Assembly (NCBI RefSeq): GCF_001548675.1
Contig: NZ_CP010834.1
Coordinates: 965,501-1,029,500, forward strand
Origin: Methanobrevibacter sp. YE315
Lineage (GTDB): Archaea > Methanobacteriota > Methanobacteria > Methanobacteriales > Methanobacteriaceae
Direction of reading: 5' to 3'
DNA length: 64,000 nt
The position numbers and the translations under genes were made by a program. Of this stretch, positions 31,519 through 64,000 are shown one piece after another (position 1 is the stretch's first letter; every line of letters begins with the position of its first letter). Under the pieces are notes generated by a model. It ran no database searches and was not told the origin of the DNA. It worked only from the letters and a program-made list of their open reading frames with translations.

Positions 31519-34500
31519 ATGAAAAAACATTTGATATGCACAATACTAATTTTGATATTTATTTTTTCAATGGGAACTATAAGTGCACAGGATATAAACG
31601 ATACGGCTCAATCAATTGATGATGAGAATGGAATTGTCATTGCTGATTCAGATTTGCCTTCAAATTCACCTAAATCTTTTAAAGATCTGGAGAATGATTT
31701 GCCAACATATTATGACAATGTATCTGAATTTAATATAAGCGATGATTATGCATATAATGAAGAGACAGACTCTAATATGACACCATTTGATTTAATGATT
31801 GGAGGCTTCGATTTTACCATAAATGGGAATAATCATTTTATTGACGGAAAAAATCGGATATCCGGATTCATGATATTTGGAGGAAATATTACAATTAAAG
31901 ACTTAACATTTATAAATTGTAATGAGTCCTGGATAAATGGAATGGGTACAACCGTTAATTTGAATAATGTTAAATTTATAGATAATGGAACTGATGGAAA
32001 TCAAACTTTAATTAAAATAGTGGGCTCTAATTTAACTGTAAAAAATTGTTCATTCTATTCCACCACCAAACATAAAGCAGATATCGTGGGAGCATTAATT
32101 AGTAGCGTTTCAGTTGAGGATTCTACATTTTTAGGAGGAAGAGTAGATTATGGTAGGATTTTAGTTCCTTATGGTTGCAATTTGTATGTAAATAATGCAA
32201 CCTTCACCAATTCATCTGCTAGATATGCACCAGCAATCTATTGTGAAGGACTTCAGTGGGTAATTAGAAATTCAAAATTCATTAATCTGAGTTCAGACTT
32301 ATCTTCAGGAGCGATAGGATTTAAATTTCCACATATTGCCGATTTTAATCAAACTCCTTTATTTTTAATAGAAAATTGCATATTTGAAAATACATCTTCC
32401 ACAAAAGATGCCGGCGCAGTGTTCTTTGATTCTTTAGGAATGCTAGCTTATGGGGCTCTGTATGAAAATTTAACATTGGATATTATTAACTCAACTTTCA
32501 AAAATTGTAGCAGTAATTTTGGAGGAGCTATCCTCCACCTCTACGGTAATTTAAATATTGCTGATTCAACTTTCATGAACAACAAGGCAACCAGTTCCGG
32601 TGGCGCAATTTATACTTCCTGTACTAATTTGAATATTTCCAATTCCACTTTAACCAATAACGTTGCAGACTATCAAGCTGGAGCAATATTTTTCGATGAA
32701 GGGAATTTGACCATTTCAAATTCTAAATTAATTGGCAATAAGGTTACATATTCCGCCATAAAAAACACTGCACACACAATCTATGCATATGATGCAAATA
32801 TGATTTTTGAAGATTCATTATTCAATAATTCCGGTGTAAGCGTTGTTGGATTTTTCAGTGATTTAAAAGATATGAATACAACATTTCTTAATGATGAACT
32901 GTCTACAAACAATACCGAATATGAATATTTTGTTGCAAGATATGCAATGCCTATTGAGCTGGTCAACAATACAATAGATGTGGATGGCATTCCATCCAAA
33001 TTCGATTTGCGTGATTGGGGATGGGCAGGAAATGTTTATAATCAAGGAAATAACGGAGCTTGCTGGGCAGTTGGTTCAGTAGGTGCACTTGAATCAGCAT
33101 TGCTTAAAGCAACAGGAGTTCAACATTTATTCTCACCAAATAACATGCAGAATATGGAATTGATATATTCAAAATATGGAAGTACAGCCATGATTGAAGG
33201 GGGATATGTATTCAGTGCCCCAGGATATTTATTAAGTTGGTTAGGACTTCAAAGCAGCGAAATAGACCCTTATGATGAAATGGGCAAAATATCTGAATTG
33301 ATTTTTGATGATGACGAGACAATTCATGTTCAAGATGTGATCGTTATTCCGGGAAGAACAGATACAACTGATATCGAACTTAAAAAAGCAATACTCAACT
33401 ATGGAGCTCTTGCCATCATATACGGTGCACACGGTGATACAGAGCCATATTTCAATTCGGAAAATGGAGCATGTTATTATAATGAATCACACAGTGCAAA
33501 CCATTTGATTGATGTTGTTGGATGGGATGATAATTATTCAAAGGATAACTTTATCATTACTCCTCCAGGAGACGGCGCATGGATTTGTAAAAACAGTTGG
33601 GGAACTGGAACTGGAGATGGAGGCTTTATCTACTTGTCTTATTATGATATGTCATTTTTATATCTGGAGAACATGACCGGTTTATTCTCAGGAGCGGTAG
33701 GATATATATTCAATAATACCATTCCGTATACGATTAACTATCAAACCGACTTTGCAGGATTGGGATATTTTGATGGAAACTACACACATTACTCAAATGA
33801 GTTCATTTCACAAACTTATGAACTATTGGGTGCTGTTGGAACCTACTTCAATGAAACCGGGGTTGATTATGAACTTAAAATCTATGTTAATGATGAGCTA
33901 ATTCATACACAAACCGGCACCAGCGAATATGCAGGATTCAAAACAATCATTTTAGATAAATACGTTCCAGTCATTCTCGATGACAAGATTAAAGTAGAAT
34001 TTAAAAGTAATTCTGTTCCTATCGCAACTCAAACAAGACAACACCTTCTTGCAAATGTATCATTTGTAAGTGCCGACGGTGAAAATTGGATTGACGCTCT
34101 TGATTTTGACAGTACAGTTTGTCTTAAGGCATACACTGTTGATGATGATACAAAAATAATTGATAATGAAAACATTACAGTTTACTACAATAGTGGATCT
34201 TACTTTAGTGTAAAGGTTGTAACTGCTGACGGCAGACCTGTCGGTGCAGGCGAAAGAGTTAAATTCACCATCGGTGAAAAAACTACTACCGCTAGAACTG
34301 ACAATGATGGGATTGCCAAAATCGAAATAACCGAAGAACCTGGCACTTATGTCATGACAACAACAACATTCAATGGTGATACATACACAAACACCATTAC
34401 TGTAATATCAAACTCAAGTAATGATAATAATACACCGGATAAAGGCAACGAATCTGATGACAAGTCAGTTCCTGACATTAAGCCAACTCCAAGCAGTACC

Positions 34501-34824
34501 ATGCCTGCCTATTCAAGACAGTCCAGTTACAACTCAGAATACGTATACACATTATACCGTGCGGATGACATGAAAGTAATCTGCCGTTCAAATGTAGTTA
34601 TTCTTAAGGCATTGATGGATCTCTTTAAGGTTAATCTGACAAATGGACACCTAAAAGTATACATTGATGGCGTGCTTGTATTTGACGGTGATGTAGACGA
34701 TAATTTATCTAAAGTAATTTTTGAGATTCTTGAAAAATTCTTGGGCAAACATGAAATTACTGTAGAGTTTACAGACAGCGAAGGAAAAACACAAACTTAT
34801 AATGAAACAATGATAATTGAATAA
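31519..34824 (+). CDS. Adhesin-like surface protein: beta-helix plus papain-like (C1A) peptidase
   Basis: The 1101-residue secreted protein has a GGAGGGAG ribosome site. After the signal peptide (residues 1-24, LICTILILIFIFSMGTISAQ) come about 420 residues of right-handed beta-helix repeats, typical of methanogen adhesin-like proteins. A C1A peptidase domain follows from about residue 490: PSKFDLRDWG, catalytic C515 (NNGACWAVG), H662 (SANHLIDVVGWDD) and N692 (KNSWGTGTG), all intact. Next come a lectin-like beta domain of the kind found behind clostridial C1 peptidases and an Ig-like domain (about 885-960). A Pro/Ser/Asn linker and a short C-terminal domain end it, with no clear membrane anchor. 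It probably digests peptides at the cell surface. Confidence 0.88.
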   Translation: MKKHLICTILILIFIFSMGTISAQDINDTAQSIDDENGIVIADSDLPSNSPKSFKDLENDLPTYYDNVSEFNISDDYAYNEETDSNMTPFDLMIGGFDFTINGNNHFIDGKNRISGFMIFGGNITIKDLTFINCNESWINGMGTTVNLNNVKFIDNGTDGNQTLIKIVGSNLTVKNCSFYSTTKHKADIVGALISSVSVEDSTFLGGRVDYGRILVPYGCNLYVNNATFTNSSARYAPAIYCEGLQWVIRNSKFINLSSDLSSGAIGFKFPHIADFNQTPLFLIENCIFENTSSTKDAGAVFFDSLGMLAYGALYENLTLDIINSTFKNCSSNFGGAILHLYGNLNIADSTFMNNKATSSGGAIYTSCTNLNISNSTLTNNVADYQAGAIFFDEGNLTISNSKLIGNKVTYSAIKNTAHTIYAYDANMIFEDSLFNNSGVSVVGFFSDLKDMNTTFLNDELSTNNTEYEYFVARYAMPIELVNNTIDVDGIPSKFDLRDWGWAGNVYNQGNNGACWAVGSVGALESALLKATGVQHLFSPNNMQNMELIYSKYGSTAMIEGGYVFSAPGYLLSWLGLQSSEIDPYDEMGKISELIFDDDETIHVQDVIVIPGRTDTTDIELKKAILNYGALAIIYGAHGDTEPYFNSENGACYYNESHSANHLIDVVGWDDNYSKDNFIITPPGDGAWICKNSWGTGTGDGGFIYLSYYDMSFLYLENMTGLFSGAVGYIFNNTIPYTINYQTDFAGLGYFDGNYTHYSNEFISQTYELLGAVGTYFNETGVDYELKIYVNDELIHTQTGTSEYAGFKTIILDKYVPVILDDKIKVEFKSNSVPIATQTRQHLLANVSFVSADGENWIDALDFDSTVCLKAYTVDDDTKIIDNENITVYYNSGSYFSVKVVTADGRPVGAGERVKFTIGEKTTTARTDNDGIAKIEITEEPGTYVMTTTTFNGDTYTNTITVISNSSNDNNTPDKGNESDDKSVPDIKPTPSSTMPAYSRQSSYNSEYVYTLYRADDMKVICRSNVVILKALMDLFKVNLTNGHLKVYIDGVLVFDGDVDDNLSKVIFEILEKFLGKHEITVEFTDSEGKTQTYNETMIIE

Positions 34825-35717: not shown

Positions 35718-36641
35718 ATGGAAATCAAAGATAAGATTTTGGTTATAAGTGATGATGATGAAAATAAGTTAGTTAATCAATTTGAAGAGATATTGAAAGA
35801 TAGCGAAATCGAAATGATTTCTTCCAGGTCCGACATTGACGATTTGAAAATGAATATGAGAAGGGACTTTTATGTAATCTTCGTTGATTATGACTATCTT
35901 GATACAGAGGTCAACAGGTTGGTAAGTTTGATTAGGGATTATCTTCGTGCATTGCCTCTTATTGATGTAATGTCTTTTGACACTTCCATTTTTAATAGGG
36001 AAAAGATACCTCATGTATCTTTCTTTGATAAGAATAGTTCATTTGAATCATTGCACAATCAGTTGCTTAATTTTATAAAAATCATGAAATTCAACAAATC
36101 CCTTAATGACGTTTCCCATCTTCCGGGAAATTTTGTTATAAATGAGGTTATGGAAACCAAACTCAGAAATAAGGATGATTTTGTAATAATGTATCTTGAC
36201 ATTGACAAGTTCAAGGCATTCTGCGATTATTTCGGAATATACAGGTCAGGCAAAGTCATTGAATTCTTATCTTCATTATGCATCAAGCTGGTTGATGAGT
36301 ATGGGGTTCCTGAAGATTTCATAGGCCATGTCGGTGGTGATGATATGGTATTGATTTTTACCGACTTTGAAAATGCTAAATTCATTGGAAACAAGATAAT
36401 TGAAGAGTTTGATGCCCATATAAAAGATTTCTATGATAAGAAAGATGTGGAAAAAGGATATATAGAAGTTTTAAACAGGAAGGGAATTATGGAAAAATTC
36501 CCATTTGTAACATTGTCAATTGTTACAATTAGTAATGAATTTAAGGATTATTCCACTACTGATGAAATTTATAGGGATATGATGGTTGCCAAAAAAGAGG
36601 CTAAACAAACAATGGGGTCTATTTTATTGCACAGCACATAA
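35718..36641 (+). CDS. Receiver-like plus GGDEF-like domain protein
   Basis: The 307 residues combine a response-regulator-like N-terminal domain (LVISDDDENKLVNQFEEIL, FYVIFVDYDYL, with Asp residues where a receiver has its acidic pocket) and a C-terminal GGDEF-like domain from about residue 130. The latter has the LPGN opening (HLPGNFVINEVM), the metal Asp pair in YLDIDKFKAF (D161, D163), and GHVGGDD (206-209) in place of GG(D/E)EF. The last part diverges from bacterial diguanylate cyclases. Whether it makes c-di-GMP, another nucleotide, or only binds one is unknown. A paralogue follows 10 bases downstream. Confidence 0.8.
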   Translation: MEIKDKILVISDDDENKLVNQFEEILKDSEIEMISSRSDIDDLKMNMRRDFYVIFVDYDYLDTEVNRLVSLIRDYLRALPLIDVMSFDTSIFNREKIPHVSFFDKNSSFESLHNQLLNFIKIMKFNKSLNDVSHLPGNFVINEVMETKLRNKDDFVIMYLDIDKFKAFCDYFGIYRSGKVIEFLSSLCIKLVDEYGVPEDFIGHVGGDDMVLIFTDFENAKFIGNKIIEEFDAHIKDFYDKKDVEKGYIEVLNRKGIMEKFPFVTLSIVTISNEFKDYSTTDEIYRDMMVAKKEAKQTMGSILLHST

Positions 36642-36651
36642 TTGGGGTGAT

Positions 36652-37590
36652 ATGATGATTTATAAAAATATTGTTGTCATTGATGATTTAGGAGATGTTT
36701 TTGAACCGTTAAATGATGCCTTTAGTGATGATTTGGAAATAAAAATAAGGCATTTAACTTCAGATTTCGATTCATTAAAGAAATATTTGACAAGGGACAC
36801 TTATATTATTTTAATAAATGAAACAGGTTTGAAGGTTGATTTGGACCAATTGGTTGATTTTATCCAGAGGAATCTGTTTTTCTTGGCAATTCCGATATTG
36901 ATAGTTTCTGATAATGAAGAAGTAATCAAAAGACCTCCAAAATTGGATTCTCCAGTTTTGAATGTTGCATTAAAACCATTGGTTATGAGCGATTTCAAAC
37001 CACGTCTTGAATATGCCATTGAAGTCTTTGAATACAACAGGAATATTAATGACATATCAGGCCTTCCTGGAAATAAGATTATAAGTTCAAAATTGTTGTC
37101 TGAAATTTCTAAAAATTCCAAGTTTGCATTGGTATTTTTAGATTTGGATAACTTCAAAGAGTTTGATGAATATTACGGATTGTACAAAGGAAGCCAAGTC
37201 ATGTATTTCTTGGCCAACTTGATTGAAGAGTCAATTAAAGAGTATGGTTCTATTGAAGATTTTGTCGGTAATGTCGGTGGAGATGACTTTATAATGATTT
37301 TAAAAGATTATAAGGCTGCTGATTTAATATGTAAAGACATAATCGCAAAATTCGATAAACAGATTCTTGATTTTTATGATGAAGATGATATCAAAAACGG
37401 ATATATTGAAACAATGAACAGGGATGGTGAAATCGAAAAAATCAGTTTCATGGGAATTTCTGTTGTTATAATGAACTATATGGAATTCAAGGGCAAAATG
37501 TTCGATGAAGTCTTCAGAAAAATGAATGAGGTTAAAAAGATAGCAAAACAGGTTGATGGAAGTGTTCTTCTGGACGCTAAGAACTATTGA
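36652..37590 (+). CDS. Second receiver-like plus GGDEF-like protein
   Basis: A tandem paralogue of the preceding gene with the same order of domains: a receiver-like part (IVVIDDLGDVFEPLNDAF, YIILINETGL) and a GGDEF-like part with GLPGNKII, FLDLDNFKEF, and GNVGGDDFIM (GGDD at 209-212). The start is ATG 36652 or 36655; GGGGTGA directly upstream favours the second. The usual phospho-acceptor Asp of a receiver is not clearly retained (INETG at that strand end), so phosphorylation control is doubtful. Same transcript as the upstream gene. The two proteins might form a heterodimer. Confidence 0.78.
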   Translation: MMIYKNIVVIDDLGDVFEPLNDAFSDDLEIKIRHLTSDFDSLKKYLTRDTYIILINETGLKVDLDQLVDFIQRNLFFLAIPILIVSDNEEVIKRPPKLDSPVLNVALKPLVMSDFKPRLEYAIEVFEYNRNINDISGLPGNKIISSKLLSEISKNSKFALVFLDLDNFKEFDEYYGLYKGSQVMYFLANLIEESIKEYGSIEDFVGNVGGDDFIMILKDYKAADLICKDIIAKFDKQILDFYDEDDIKNGYIETMNRDGEIEKISFMGISVVIMNYMEFKGKMFDEVFRKMNEVKKIAKQVDGSVLLDAKNY

Positions 37591-39067: not shown

Positions 39068-41611
39068 ATTAAAAAAAGATATTTTTCAATAATCTGCATA
39101 GTTGCATTGCTTTTGGCTATAGGGTGTGTTTCAGCTAGCGATAGCGATAACTCTTTACAGAGCATTGATGATAAAGCAGATTTGAAGGATTCCATTATCC
39201 CTGATGGCGGTGAACTGACATCCTCAAACGAATGGTATGTTGATGCAAGCAGCAGTGAAGGCGGTGACGGTTCACGTGATGCGCCATTTAACAACTTGAA
39301 TAGTGCTATAACTCACTCAAAAGATGGCAACACAATATATATTGCACCAGGAACCTATAGCGGTTCTGGACTCAATGTAAATTTGAGCATCGACAAATCA
39401 TTAAACCTCATTAAGCTTGGTGAGGGCGATGTGATATTTGATGGTGAGGGCACCTATCAGATTTTTAGTATTTCATCCAGTTCATTTAATATAGATGGAT
39501 TGACTTTTACTCATGGAATGTCTGATGAAAATGGTGGTGCAATCTATTTTGCTAACGGATTAAAGGACAGTAAGATAAATGCCAGCTTCATTGAAAACAA
39601 TGCCCGACTTGGAGGTGCAATATATTTCAATGATAAAATCATCAACAATACTTTTACAGGCTCATATATTCGCAATGAAGTAAAAAGCAATGGCGGAGCT
39701 ATTCTTGTAAATGGAATTGCTAATTATAACACATTTTCAGCTGATTTTTGCGAAAATAAAGGAAACGGCTATTATGGCGGTGCAATCCATTTCACCAATC
39801 ATACTTCTGATAATAAATTTTATGGAAACTTCCTGAACAATTATATTGTAGAGGGATCAGGTGGAGGCATAGTTTTTGACTGGGACGTAAATAATACAAT
39901 ATTTGCAGCCAATTTCAGCAATAACTATGTATATCATTTTCCTAGTGCCGCATTTGAAGTATATGGTACTTTTTACAACAATACAGTTAGCGGTTATTTT
40001 GAAAATAATCGTGAAGCAGCAGTATTGTTAAGCATATGTATCGATAATACGTTCAATGCCACATTTATAAATAATTCAGCCCGTTATGGAGGTATCCTAT
40101 CCATAGAAACGTCCATTAACAATTATTTTTCATGCATTTTCATTAATAATAGGGGGCAAAAGGGTTCTGCGCTTAATTTTATGATGGACGTGATAAATAC
40201 CACTATAGAAGGGGCTTTTATAAATAATACTGCCACTATTTTCGGAGGAGCTATTTCAATTTACCCATATATTAACTCAAGGGATTACAAAATCCAAAAT
40301 CTCACCATCAGCGCTGATTTTATTAACAATACTGCGCAAAGATATGGCGGAGCCGTTTATCTTGTAACTAACTACAGCGTGCAGTTTGAAGATTCATTTT
40401 TCGAGAACAATCATGCAAAAAATGGTGGGGCAATCTATTTGGATGTTGCAAATGTTTATTTTGATTCATGTATCTTCAATGATAATGATGCTGAAGACGG
40501 TGGAGCTATTATTAATTACGGAAACCTGACAATCAGCAATTCCCAATTTGGAGATAATACTGCAACTTTGGGAACAAATTATATCAGCCTGAAAGATAAT
40601 GCAACACTTACATTGAATAATGTAACCCCTGAAGACCTAAGACAATTACGTTTAGGAAATCTAATTTTAAATGCTAGCAATATTACATATGGAGAAAACG
40701 TAAGGATTATTGCAAACGTAACTTATGAAAAAAATGTTCCATTCAATGACGGTAAAATCTCTGTTGTAGTTAATGGCAAAACCTACAGCGCAGATGTTTC
40801 CGATGGAATCGGTACAATTGAGATTCCGGGATTGGATGCCGGAAACTATACTGTCAATGTTACATATGACGGTAATGAATATATCTCAACTGCACCGGTC
40901 GAATTCAGTGTCTTAAAGCAGGATACTGATATTGCTGCTACAAACAAAGCATACACAGTTGATTATGGAGGAACATACTCAATTGAACTGAAGGATGCAA
41001 ATGGAAATCCTGTCAGTGGCAAAAAAGTGGAATTTATATTGGACGGCAAAGATATCGGATATGCAACCACTGACGCGGAAGGCATAGCTTCTATAGAATT
41101 AACTCCAAAAATACTAAAAGAATCAGGTATTAAGAGCCTTGAAATTAGATTTGATGGTGATGTTAATTATAATCCTGCATCAAAAGCAGTTGAGATAACT
41201 GTCAACAAGCAAAAAGCAAAAATTCTTCCAAATGAAAAATCATACAATAATGCTAAAAATATTAAAAAATACCCAGCTACTTTCAAAAACAGCAATGAAA
41301 AAGCAGTTAAAAAAGTAAAGGTCAGATTAGACTTTAAGCTAGGAACTTACAAGACTTCAAAAAATCAGTGCATTGTGTTATCTTTGTACAATATCAAATG
41401 GACAGAGGAAATAGGTCCTGATGGAAAGATCATCATCACAGATAGAAATAATGAGACTTTGTGCATACTGACAATAAACTGCTTTAAAGATGGTAAAACA
41501 ATGATTATTGATTTTGACTATAAACGGGACCAACCTAACCAATTTACATTATATGTCACATTAAATCTGGAAACCCTTGGTGAAGTTCTAATCAACTTTA
41601 TTTCCTTATAA
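39068..41611 (+). CDS. Adhesin-like protein: beta-helix repeats and Ig-like domains
   Basis: This secreted protein has about 848 residues. The mature N-terminus follows a signal peptide (KKRYFSIICIVALLLAIGC to VSAS), which begins only if translation starts at ATT 39068, six bases after GGGGG. The first in-frame TTG (39107) would cut the signal peptide in half, and ATG 39051 is out of frame by one base. About 430 residues of beta-helix repeats (GGAIYF, NNTF, ENN) follow, then two Ig-like domains (GDGKISVVVNGKTY-type from about residue 560, and YTVDYGGTYSIELKDANGNP from about 630). A C-terminal beta domain ends the protein, with no clear anchor. A role in binding to cells or host glycans is inferred. 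Confidence 0.83.
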   Translation: MKKRYFSIICIVALLLAIGCVSASDSDNSLQSIDDKADLKDSIIPDGGELTSSNEWYVDASSSEGGDGSRDAPFNNLNSAITHSKDGNTIYIAPGTYSGSGLNVNLSIDKSLNLIKLGEGDVIFDGEGTYQIFSISSSSFNIDGLTFTHGMSDENGGAIYFANGLKDSKINASFIENNARLGGAIYFNDKIINNTFTGSYIRNEVKSNGGAILVNGIANYNTFSADFCENKGNGYYGGAIHFTNHTSDNKFYGNFLNNYIVEGSGGGIVFDWDVNNTIFAANFSNNYVYHFPSAAFEVYGTFYNNTVSGYFENNREAAVLLSICIDNTFNATFINNSARYGGILSIETSINNYFSCIFINNRGQKGSALNFMMDVINTTIEGAFINNTATIFGGAISIYPYINSRDYKIQNLTISADFINNTAQRYGGAVYLVTNYSVQFEDSFFENNHAKNGGAIYLDVANVYFDSCIFNDNDAEDGGAIINYGNLTISNSQFGDNTATLGTNYISLKDNATLTLNNVTPEDLRQLRLGNLILNASNITYGENVRIIANVTYEKNVPFNDGKISVVVNGKTYSADVSDGIGTIEIPGLDAGNYTVNVTYDGNEYISTAPVEFSVLKQDTDIAATNKAYTVDYGGTYSIELKDANGNPVSGKKVEFILDGKDIGYATTDAEGIASIELTPKILKESGIKSLEIRFDGDVNYNPASKAVEITVNKQKAKILPNEKSYNNAKNIKKYPATFKNSNEKAVKKVKVRLDFKLGTYKTSKNQCIVLSLYNIKWTEEIGPDGKIIITDRNNETLCILTINCFKDGKTMIIDFDYKRDQPNQFTLYVTLNLETLGEVLINFISL

Positions 41612-61154: not shown

Positions 61155-64000
61155 TTGAAGAAAAAATTCATAATTATATTGTTTATAGCGCTTATGTTTG
61201 CCATTCCGGCAACGTTTGCAGCCGACAACCAGACAATGCTTGAGCTAAATGATAATGATGGTAACCTATCAGCTTCATACTATTTTAATCCGAATGCTGA
61301 AAACGACAATGGAGACGGGTCAATTAATAATCCATATAAGTACCTGACATGGGATAGAATCCGTGACAATTCCATTCTTCATCTGAAAAACGGTGAATAT
61401 GATTTGGGAAATAGGTATTCAAACATCTATAATGTAACATTCCTCGGTCAAAACTGCGATAGGACAATTATTAAAAATGCAAGATTCACTGTTCAAAGCT
61501 CAATTGTTATTAAGGATTTGACATTGACATCCTCAGTCATCTCCAACAATGGAGATATAAATGCAAGAAATGTGATCTTTAAGGATTCATATTCCACTTC
61601 AGGCGGAGGAGCCATAAGCTCTACAAATTCGAATTCGCTTGTAAAAGTGTATAACTGCACCTTCCTGAATAACAGCGCCAAATATGGCGGTGCGATATAT
61701 ATGAGCAAGGGTACTCTATCTGTTTCCAATTCCATTTTCAGGGATAATCATGCGCAGCTGTTCGGCGGAGCCATTGCATGTGAAAACAATGTGGATGGAG
61801 CCATTTTCCAGTCAAACTTCTTGAATGACTATTCCGTAAGTGATGCTGGCGGTGCAATTTACGTGAGCGACTCCTTGAAGTTCATTGCAAACAGGGTAAC
61901 TCTGACAAACTGCAGCGCTACCTTTGGAGGGGGAATAATTTCCCTTAGCACAAATCTTACATTGAAAAACAGCACTGCTAAAAACAACAGGGCAAAATAT
62001 GACGGAGGGGCAGTCTATCTGATGTATCGCTATTTCACTCTTAGAGATTCCAATTTCAACAATAACACAGCAAACAACGGTGGAGCGCTATATGTTGACG
62101 GCGCCGACATATTCAATATCTATTATAATAAATTCATAAATAACAAGGCCCAAAACACTGCCGGTGCGGTTTACTGTCTTTTAAGCGACATATTCTATGA
62201 TTCAATTTATGATTCTCGACTTGGAAACTCATTTTCAAACAATAAGGCGAAATATCAAAACAATGCATATCAGACCGATGATGTTGATTTAAGTATTGGC
62301 AGTGGGGATTATACTCTTCTTATCAAAAAATCACCTTCAACTGAGTATATTCCTATAAAATATGATTTAAGAGATTTAAATCAGGTTACAAGCGTTAAAA
62401 ATCAGGAAAAAGGTTCAAACTGTTGGGCATTTGCGGCCATCGGTTCATTGGAATCCTGCATCCTCAAGGCTATGAGCAAAAATTATGACTTTTCCGAAAA
62501 CAACATGATAAATCTAATGTCAAAATTCTCCGACTATGGATGGAACATGGCTACTAATGACGGTGGATATGATGATATGGGCATAGGATATCTGACCAGC
62601 TGGCTGGGTCCTGTTCTTGAAAGCCAGGATGAATATTCTCCGATAAACACAATTTCTCCTGTTTATAATAGTCTAAATCATATTCAAAATGTATTATTCC
62701 TAAAACGCAGCGATTATACTGATAACAATGATATCAAGTTGGCAATCAGGAATTGCGGAGGTGTTGCAACAAGCATCTATTGGAGTGGTTCATTCATCCA
62801 GAACCAGAAGAATTATTACTATGATGGTGGAAACACTCCAAATCATGCAGTCGTAATTGTCGGATGGGATGACACCTATTCAAAATCAAACTTCAAGTCA
62901 ACACCCCCTGGTGATGGGGCATGGATTATCAAGAACAGCTGGGGAACTTCAAGCGGTGAAAATGGTTATTATTATGTATCATATTATGACACTAAATTGG
63001 CACAAGTCAACAAATCCGATGTCACTTATACGTTTATTTTAAACGATACTATCAAATACGATAAGAATTACCAATATGATATACCAGGCAGGACAGATTT
63101 CTTTATAAATTCATCAAATGTAGTATGGTATAAGAACAGGTTTACCGCAACAGACAATGAATACCTTACTGCCGTTTCAACATATTTCCAAAAGGCAACC
63201 GACTGGATCGTATACATATATGTCAATGGCCAAAAGGTTCTCACCCAGTCAGGAAAATCCCCTTCAAGCTATTCTACAATAGAACTTAATAAGTTCATCC
63301 AGATAAATAAGGGTGATGTTTTTGAAGTCGTATTTAAGATAACCGTTGACAATGAAGCGGGCGTTCCGATTTCAGAAGAAGTTTCACTTAACAAACAGCT
63401 CTATAAAGAAGGCATATCCTACATCAGCTATGACGGCAAAACCTGGAAGGACCTATATGATTTGACATGGTCATATTCAACTCACACATATGCATCACAG
63501 GTTGCATGCATCAAGGCGTTCACAATCCTCAATAAGATAGTCCCAAAGATTACATTATCCGTAAATGAGGGAGATACACCATGGCTGATATCAGCAAATG
63601 TGAAAGATTCTTATGGAAATCCGGTCAAAACAGGAAAAGTCACTTTCACGGTTGAAGATGAGACAGTTACCTGCAATGTAGTCGATGGATACTGTGAACT
63701 TGCCCATATATTCACAACCGTAGGCGAAAAGGCGATTACTGCAAAATTCAGCCAGAGCGGCTATACAAGCCCAACTTCAAAAATCAAGGTGAATGTTACT
63801 CAAATTAAGGATGAAATGTTTTTGAATATCAAGACTAATGTCTTGGATGCGAGAATAAATGTCATATTAACCAGAAACGTTGATGGAACAGCATATTTCA
63901 TCATCAATAAACATAACTATCAGTGCGATGTTGTAGACGGCAGGGGAGTTCTGGAGATGAACAACTGCTACTATGGAAAGTACAATGTCATGGCCTATAT
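61155..64000 (+). CDS. Adhesin-like surface protein with C1A peptidase domain, 3' end missing
   Basis: The frame is open from TTG 61155 (GAGGGTG site upstream) to the window edge, at least 948 residues. A signal peptide (KKKFIIILFIALMFAIPATF) is followed by about 320 residues of beta-helix repeats (GGAIYMS, NNSAKYGG). A C1A peptidase domain comes from about residue 400: KYDLRDLNQVTSVKNQ, C423 (SNCWAFAAIGS), H564 (NHAVVIVGWDD) and N594 (KNSWGTSSGE). A lectin-like beta domain and Ig-like domains (KITLSVNEGDTPWLISANV and onward) complete what is visible. The architecture matches the gene at 31519, though the sequences differ clearly. Extracellular. Confidence 0.88.
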   Translation, partial: MKKKFIIILFIALMFAIPATFAADNQTMLELNDNDGNLSASYYFNPNAENDNGDGSINNPYKYLTWDRIRDNSILHLKNGEYDLGNRYSNIYNVTFLGQNCDRTIIKNARFTVQSSIVIKDLTLTSSVISNNGDINARNVIFKDSYSTSGGGAISSTNSNSLVKVYNCTFLNNSAKYGGAIYMSKGTLSVSNSIFRDNHAQLFGGAIACENNVDGAIFQSNFLNDYSVSDAGGAIYVSDSLKFIANRVTLTNCSATFGGGIISLSTNLTLKNSTAKNNRAKYDGGAVYLMYRYFTLRDSNFNNNTANNGGALYVDGADIFNIYYNKFINNKAQNTAGAVYCLLSDIFYDSIYDSRLGNSFSNNKAKYQNNAYQTDDVDLSIGSGDYTLLIKKSPSTEYIPIKYDLRDLNQVTSVKNQEKGSNCWAFAAIGSLESCILKAMSKNYDFSENNMINLMSKFSDYGWNMATNDGGYDDMGIGYLTSWLGPVLESQDEYSPINTISPVYNSLNHIQNVLFLKRSDYTDNNDIKLAIRNCGGVATSIYWSGSFIQNQKNYYYDGGNTPNHAVVIVGWDDTYSKSNFKSTPPGDGAWIIKNSWGTSSGENGYYYVSYYDTKLAQVNKSDVTYTFILNDTIKYDKNYQYDIPGRTDFFINSSNVVWYKNRFTATDNEYLTAVSTYFQKATDWIVYIYVNGQKVLTQSGKSPSSYSTIELNKFIQINKGDVFEVVFKITVDNEAGVPISEEVSLNKQLYKEGISYISYDGKTWKDLYDLTWSYSTHTYASQVACIKAFTILNKIVPKITLSVNEGDTPWLISANVKDSYGNPVKTGKVTFTVEDETVTCNVVDGYCELAHIFTTVGEKAITAKFSQSGYTSPTSKIKVNVTQIKDEMFLNIKTNVLDARINVILTRNVDGTAYFIINKHNYQCDVVDGRGVLEMNNCYYGKYNVMAY

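Follow-up and report, generated by a model that had tools for sequence, protein, structure and literature searches.

Adhesin-like proteins that carry a Peptidase_C1 domain are a kind on record since 2010, having been reported in Methanobrevibacter ruminantium M1 (mru_0015, mru_0020 and others), M. smithii, and Methanosphaera stadtmanae (PMC2812497, PMC5816558, PMC11532034). Among proteins of solved structure, the best match is Cwp84 of Clostridioides difficile (PDB 4ci7, 4d59), in which a papain-type (C1A) peptidase domain is followed by a lectin-like domain and which matures the surface protein SlpA, a cleavage reported to require Cys116 (PMC4089489). Here, we analysed a window of 64,000 nucleotides from the chromosome of Methanobrevibacter sp. 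YE315 (NZ_CP010834.1, positions 965,501 to 1,029,500) and, within it, an open reading frame (ORF) of 1101 amino acids with an ATG start (31519..34824, + strand, as are all of its parts given below). The encoded protein is adhesin-like, has a C1A peptidase domain and a lectin-like domain in the same order as in Cwp84, and belongs to a large methanogen family. We consider it probable that this predicted protein is a secreted, surface-displayed cysteine endopeptidase of family C1A, akin to Cwp84 and mounted on the adhesin-like scaffold of a gut methanogen.

Pfam matches to the focal protein were far beyond chance level. Peptidase_C1 (PF00112) was found at residues 491-707 (E 3.5e-19; 70.2 bits against a cut-off of 20.7), Lectin_like (PF18560) at residues 741-873 (E 2.8e-12), and one Chlam_PMP repeat at residues 349-367. 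Together with structure matches, these place the peptidase domain at residues ~491-715 (32989..33663) and the lectin-like domain at residues ~735-877 (33721..34149). An AlphaFold2 model built on a 41-row alignment had a mean predicted local distance difference test score (pLDDT) of 81.8 and a predicted template modelling score (pTM) of 0.79, with confidence mostly high for residues ~50-963 and low for residues 19-40 and most of 966-1101. The top Foldseek match of the model was Cwp84, with cathepsins also among the matches, and Cwp84 was the best match in the PDB by sequence as well as by fold. When the Foldseek matches were re-examined (VIA), residues 491-876 aligned with Cwp84 without its propeptide over 365 residues (Z 41.7; root-mean-square deviation 2.3). 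An initial annotation of this locus had described a lectin-like domain following the peptidase and a likeness to clostridial surface peptidases, and both are borne out by these results.

The catalytic residues were assigned by alignment of family columns. C515 (33061..33063), H662 (33502..33504), and N692 (33592..33594) fall in the columns of the catalytic Cys, His, and Asn, and Q509 (33043..33045), which is conserved across relatives, aligns with Gln110, the oxyanion-hole residue of Cwp84 (PMC4089489). The alignment upholds the complete triad proposed in the initial annotation and adds the Gln to it; both the fold and the Cys, His, Asn, and Gln residues that characterize papain family C1A were found in the focal protein. 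Among the focal protein and the 33 top-scoring hidden Markov model (HMM) loci of Methanobacteriales, one of which (L004) is the focal protein's own locus, all four residues were present in 34 of 34 rows. In three finished genomes, for which 30 of 35 match rows were examined (L021 and L028 belonging to the 34-row set as well), Gln and Cys were present in 29/29 spanning rows and His in 30/30, with Asn in 25/30 and Asp in 5/30 at the position of the catalytic Asn. A set of 90 rows showed Cys and His in 90/90 and Asn in 89/90; the Asn count is biased, since the pattern search from which this set was drawn includes the Asn, and the 34-row and three-genome counts were obtained without that pattern, although the 34-row loci are the top HMM scorers. 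As judged from sequence, such conservation is what a family of working enzymes would show, and the near-universal presence of these residues among relatives points to the focal protein being, very probably, an active surface protease. Two C1 ORFs of genome G117 (L162 and L163; ~3014 and 3013 aa) have Asp at the catalytic Asn position and are identical to each other across the C1-lectin stretch compared.

An export-type start, a beta-helix, and an immunoglobulin-like (Ig-like) domain, by which Methanobrevibacter adhesin-like proteins are recognized, are all present in the focal protein. The signal-peptide-like start (residues 1-24; 31519..31590), whose putative role and cleavage point were judged by eye from the sequence and not with a signal-peptide program, overlaps a hydrophobic helix at residues 2-20 of the model. 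Residues ~47-466 (31657..32916) form a right-handed beta-helix (ten-residue blocks mostly of pLDDT >80, a few of 66-77) that contains the Chlam_PMP repeat and, by VIA, matches the right-handed beta-helices of Vag8, phage tailspikes, AlgE, and the adhesin PfbA with Z up to 29.8, in agreement with the earlier description of a surface-type, adhesin-like beta-helix protein. The Ig-like (Big) domain at residues ~886-963 (34174..34407) was recognized from AlphaFold2 strands (ten-residue blocks of pLDDT 73-89), Pfam giving sub-threshold YtkA and Big_1 matches only in this region; among the relatives, Big_1 was found in 20 of 41 A2 members.

Between the beta-helix and the peptidase lies a linker (residues ~467-490; 32917..32988), at the place where many relatives from outside the Methanobacteria have a conserved propeptide. 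In the 44 Methanobacteria rows whose 5' end could be used, 299-1093 residues precede C1, as compared to 53-227 in 39 rows from elsewhere. Excluded from the propeptide test were L058, L079, L085, L086, and L116, all truncated at the 5' end, and L071, in which the start is called within C1; the focal protein was tested separately. At a cut-off of E 0.01, cross-tested profiles recognized a propeptide in 24 of the 39 rows from elsewhere versus 0 of the 44 Methanobacteria rows. Specifically, a profile trained on bacteria (16 rows) matched 13/14 Methanomicrobia and 0/44 Methanobacteria (best E 0.012), and one trained on Methanomicrobia (14 rows) matched 11/16 bacteria and 0/44 Methanobacteria (best E 0.014); a count of 36/39 outside the Methanobacteria includes training rows, the cross-tests being the fair counts. 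Since the best Methanobacteria E-values lie near the cut-off, very weak propeptide remnants are possible. The bacteria-trained profile matched 0/9 Lachnospiraceae-type rows, and therefore these differ as well. Chlam_PMP repeats occurred in 17 of the 41 A2 members, 8 of which are domain segments only; a beta-helix, demonstrated for the focal protein, is likely for every relative. It is conceivable, if quite improbable, that in Methanobacteria an ancestral C1A-lectin protease had its inhibitory propeptide replaced by a beta-helical adhesin to give an adhesion-gated surface protease, in which the adhesin or its binding to a partner cell would restrain or activate the enzyme and up to ~20 divergent copies per genome would serve different partners.

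Unlike Cwp84, the focal protein has a beta-helix ahead of its peptidase, no recognizable Cwp84-type N-terminal propeptide, and, in the Pfam scan, none of the cell-wall-binding (CWB2) repeats of Cwp84. By alignment, the Asn in the KNSW motif of the focal protein corresponds to Ser in Cwp84. The interdomain Gln is kept (Q338 in Cwp84; Q742 in the focal protein), while Asn487, which binds calcium in the lectin-like domain of Cwp84 (PMC4089489), maps to Thr866. When relatives were mapped through the same alignment, Asn was found at this position in 0/27 and 1/23 (3 gaps) Methanobacteria rows, and outside the Methanobacteria in 12/14 Methanomicrobia, 13/15 Bacillota, and 7/11 other bacteria. As no propeptide like that of Cwp84 is recognizable, the focal protein is classed as a relative of Cwp84 and not as its orthologue.

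Some of these observations weigh against our view of the focal protein as a Cwp84-type surface endopeptidase. It matched neither of the two propeptide profiles (E 3.3 and 0.47), which leaves the restraint of its activity unexplained. Because the Asn487 position holds Thr, its lectin-like domain may work unlike that of Cwp84. Support for its location comes from homologues and not from the focal protein itself: a study on M. smithii and M. intestini reported that vesicles contained more of a putative peptidase_C1 protein bearing adhesin-like domains (PMC12134236). The missing propeptide, a beta-helix and an Ig-like domain that are parts typical of adhesins, and the Asp seen in the 5/30 paralogue rows would also suit a protein that is mainly an adhesin, its C1 domain serving as a non-catalytic binding module; however, the focal protein has the canonical catalytic residues, and Cys and His were found in every spanning row examined, and we regard this alternative as unlikely.

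As a surface endopeptidase, the focal protein would be exported and then retained on the cell surface or on vesicles, with its beta-helix keeping the peptidase at a distance from the cell and perhaps binding a partner. As in Cwp84, the lectin-like domain would border the cleft at one end and help to select the substrate. This substrate would be a surface protein, either one of the methanogen's own adhesin-like proteins or one belonging to the host or to nearby microbes, and not the pseudomurein wall. The initial annotation had named the peptide cross-links of pseudomurein among the possible targets, and a cross-link-cutting enzyme with a role in wall turnover could be expected here, in that the cell should have a pseudomurein wall, at whose surface the focal protein would be located, and that known pseudomurein endoisopeptidases are cysteine enzymes. 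Leahy et al. (2010; PMC2812497) proposed the same role for adhesin-like proteins of M. ruminantium. However, pseudomurein-binding repeats (PMBR), which occur in 91/94 genomes, were present in 25 of the 27 genomes without a C1 match (>=90% complete, <=5% contaminated). Since these genomes keep the repeats, the wall does not require a C1 protein, and the distribution disfavours pseudomurein turnover as the general role of C1 proteins. C1-lectin relatives also occur in Methanosarcina and Methanomicrobiales, which are not known to have pseudomurein. Furthermore, the Pfam scan of the focal protein gave no PMBR, its C-terminal end being occupied instead by the shared module described below, and no match to C71, the family of PeiW and PeiP, for which Pfam includes a model; to E 10, the scan yielded C1, Lectin_like, Chlam_PMP, YtkA, and Big_1 only. 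Cleavage of pseudomurein by the focal protein is, in our estimation, distinctly unlikely.

A nutritional exoprotease, supplying peptides or amino acids, could also be imagined, as amino acids or peptone are reported to be needed by or helpful to several Methanobrevibacter (PMC10658910). However, a multi-domain surface form kept in many divergent copies per genome would be an odd design for bulk digestion, and we judge this role to be very unlikely. Among the C1 adhesin-like proteins of M. ruminantium, mru_0015 and mru_0020 have positive change values (1.49 and 2.78) in a lauric acid table (PMC5816558).

C1 domains were found in 107 of 150 Methanobacteriales genomes, which belong to 7 of 19 genera, and a single genome had as many as 20 matches; Lectin_like was found in 82 of the 114 genomes that were >=85% complete. 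At least 10 C1 matches occurred in 26/150 genomes, although one gene may yield several matches. Gene duplication in the papain family has been stated to be almost restricted to eukaryotes (PMC10380794), a view with which these counts fit poorly. The focal genome has four C1-lectin ORFs, all on the + strand and within 202 kb of the 2.27-Mb chromosome; a span this small arose in 0.28% of random placements, a question that was posed after the positions had been seen. A second of these ORFs, also adhesin-like (61155-64000; 1316 aa; L039), runs past the end of the window and belongs to another subfamily. In a quick tree of the paralogues of four genomes, the focal protein grouped with two copies each from G023 and G043 (96), and therefore the lineage of the focal gene appears older than its genome. 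Altogether, the C1-lectin family looks old in Methanobacteriaceae and looks to have expanded to many divergent copies, an expansion that would fit a diversification of targets.

The initial annotation had further suggested that the gene was transferred from gut Firmicutes, which the wide distribution of C1 domains does not support. Named genomes were scanned, and of the 568 stretches confirmed, the best 80 were kept; among these, Methanobrevibacter and Methanosphaera lead (52% identity downward), the nearest rows being other Methanobrevibacter, followed by Methanosarcina, Methanomicrobiales, Lachnospiraceae, and other bacteria at ~28-35% identity, whose C1-lectin proteins have the same domain pair and keep the catalytic residues. 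Plasmid and phage collections held distant relatives only (<=48% identity). In a careful tree of C1 plus lectin (89 rows), the 50 Methanobacteria rows, including the focal protein, formed one side of a branch (99/95) that was recovered in 98% of 200 bootstrap trees, and forcing the focal protein together with Bacillota was rejected by the approximately unbiased (AU) test (p-AU 6e-9). For the C1 domain alone, in trees that are weaker than the C1-plus-lectin tree, the same placement was rejected in the careful tree (p-AU 2.3e-4) and not in the quick tree (p-AU 0.18). The careful C1-only tree also had one Methanobacteria row (L089) leaving the other 49 to join bacterial and other rows (97/86), and the branch joining the remaining 49 was weak (22/74). 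L089 is a row from a Methanobrevibacter metagenome-assembled genome, and its placement may reflect a binning error, a swapped domain, or a second, separate acquisition. A Monoglobus row was excluded from the careful and C1-only trees because of its long branch, and L046 was unused owing to a stop in the translated stretch.

Recent acquisition of the focal gene from gut Firmicutes could draw on the clostridial identity of its top solved-structure match, the quick C1-only result, the placement of L089, a report of horizontal gene transfer of short C1A peptidases into methanogens (PMC10380794), and the p-AU of 0.48 for Methanobacteria and Bacillota as a single clade, though the last concerns deep origin. 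Against it stand the grouping of the Methanobacteria, the rejection of a Bacillota placement in both careful trees, the propeptide profiles that match none of the Methanobacteria rows, and the Methanobrevibacter nearest neighbours. As a nested transfer, it is rejected by the C1-plus-lectin tree, and we hold it to be extremely improbable. Therefore, the focal gene is not a recent gift of Firmicutes, the origin of the whole family being a separate question. An ancient exchange between the whole methanobacterial family and Bacillota is possible and compatible with the p-AU of 0.48, and a constraint joining Methanobacteria and Methanomicrobia gave 0.033; both p-values are loose because these tests were named after the tree had been seen. 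A purely archaeal phylogeny holds for the neighbourhood of the focal gene and not for the family as a whole, which has bacterial members.

Anchoring domains known from Methanobrevibacter adhesin-like proteins include PMBR, a C-terminal transmembrane helix, and the published M1-C domain. Many relatives have other C-terminal ends than the focal protein, which closes with a module that has the motif NGHLxVYIDG (residues 1008-1101; 34540..34821). No Pfam model matches this module, and modelled alone from its single sequence it gave a poor structure (pLDDT 59). It occurs at 6 places in the focal genome, one of them a 39-residue fragment, at the C-termini of proteins with unrelated bodies. Matches were found in 22 of 94 genomes, those in a few genomes being weak only. 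We propose that the module is a putative surface-attachment domain. The Ig-like domain, this module, and the three further C1-lectin ORFs of the genome are additions to the initial annotation. The module is also carried by LSGxDLSS-type repeat proteins and by a Ser/Thr/Asn-rich open frame of 285 residues (loci L134, L135, and L136). Elsewhere in the window, a further adhesin-like protein (39107-41611) has Big_3_5, Big_1, and Chlam_PMP matches, and two adjacent GGDEF (diguanylate cyclase) proteins are encoded at 35718-36641 (E 9e-7) and 36586-37590 (E 2.6e-13) in this archaeal genome, both with GGDD at the signature position.

The value of these results lies in the absent propeptide with a beta-helix in its place, in the lost calcium ligand, and in the size of the family; the loss of propeptide and calcium ligand is not described in the cited parts of the published accounts of the M. 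ruminantium, M. smithii, and M. stadtmanae C1 adhesins (PMC2812497, PMC5816558, PMC11532034). That a long N-terminal region (a beta-helix in the focal protein) has taken the place of the propeptide raises the question of what controls the enzyme. To attach to hydrogen-producing partners, gut methanogens use large repertoires of adhesin-like proteins, and only a few of these proteins have been functionally tested. The C1-bearing subset of these proteins should hold a working enzyme, which makes it testable with standard cysteine-protease probes.

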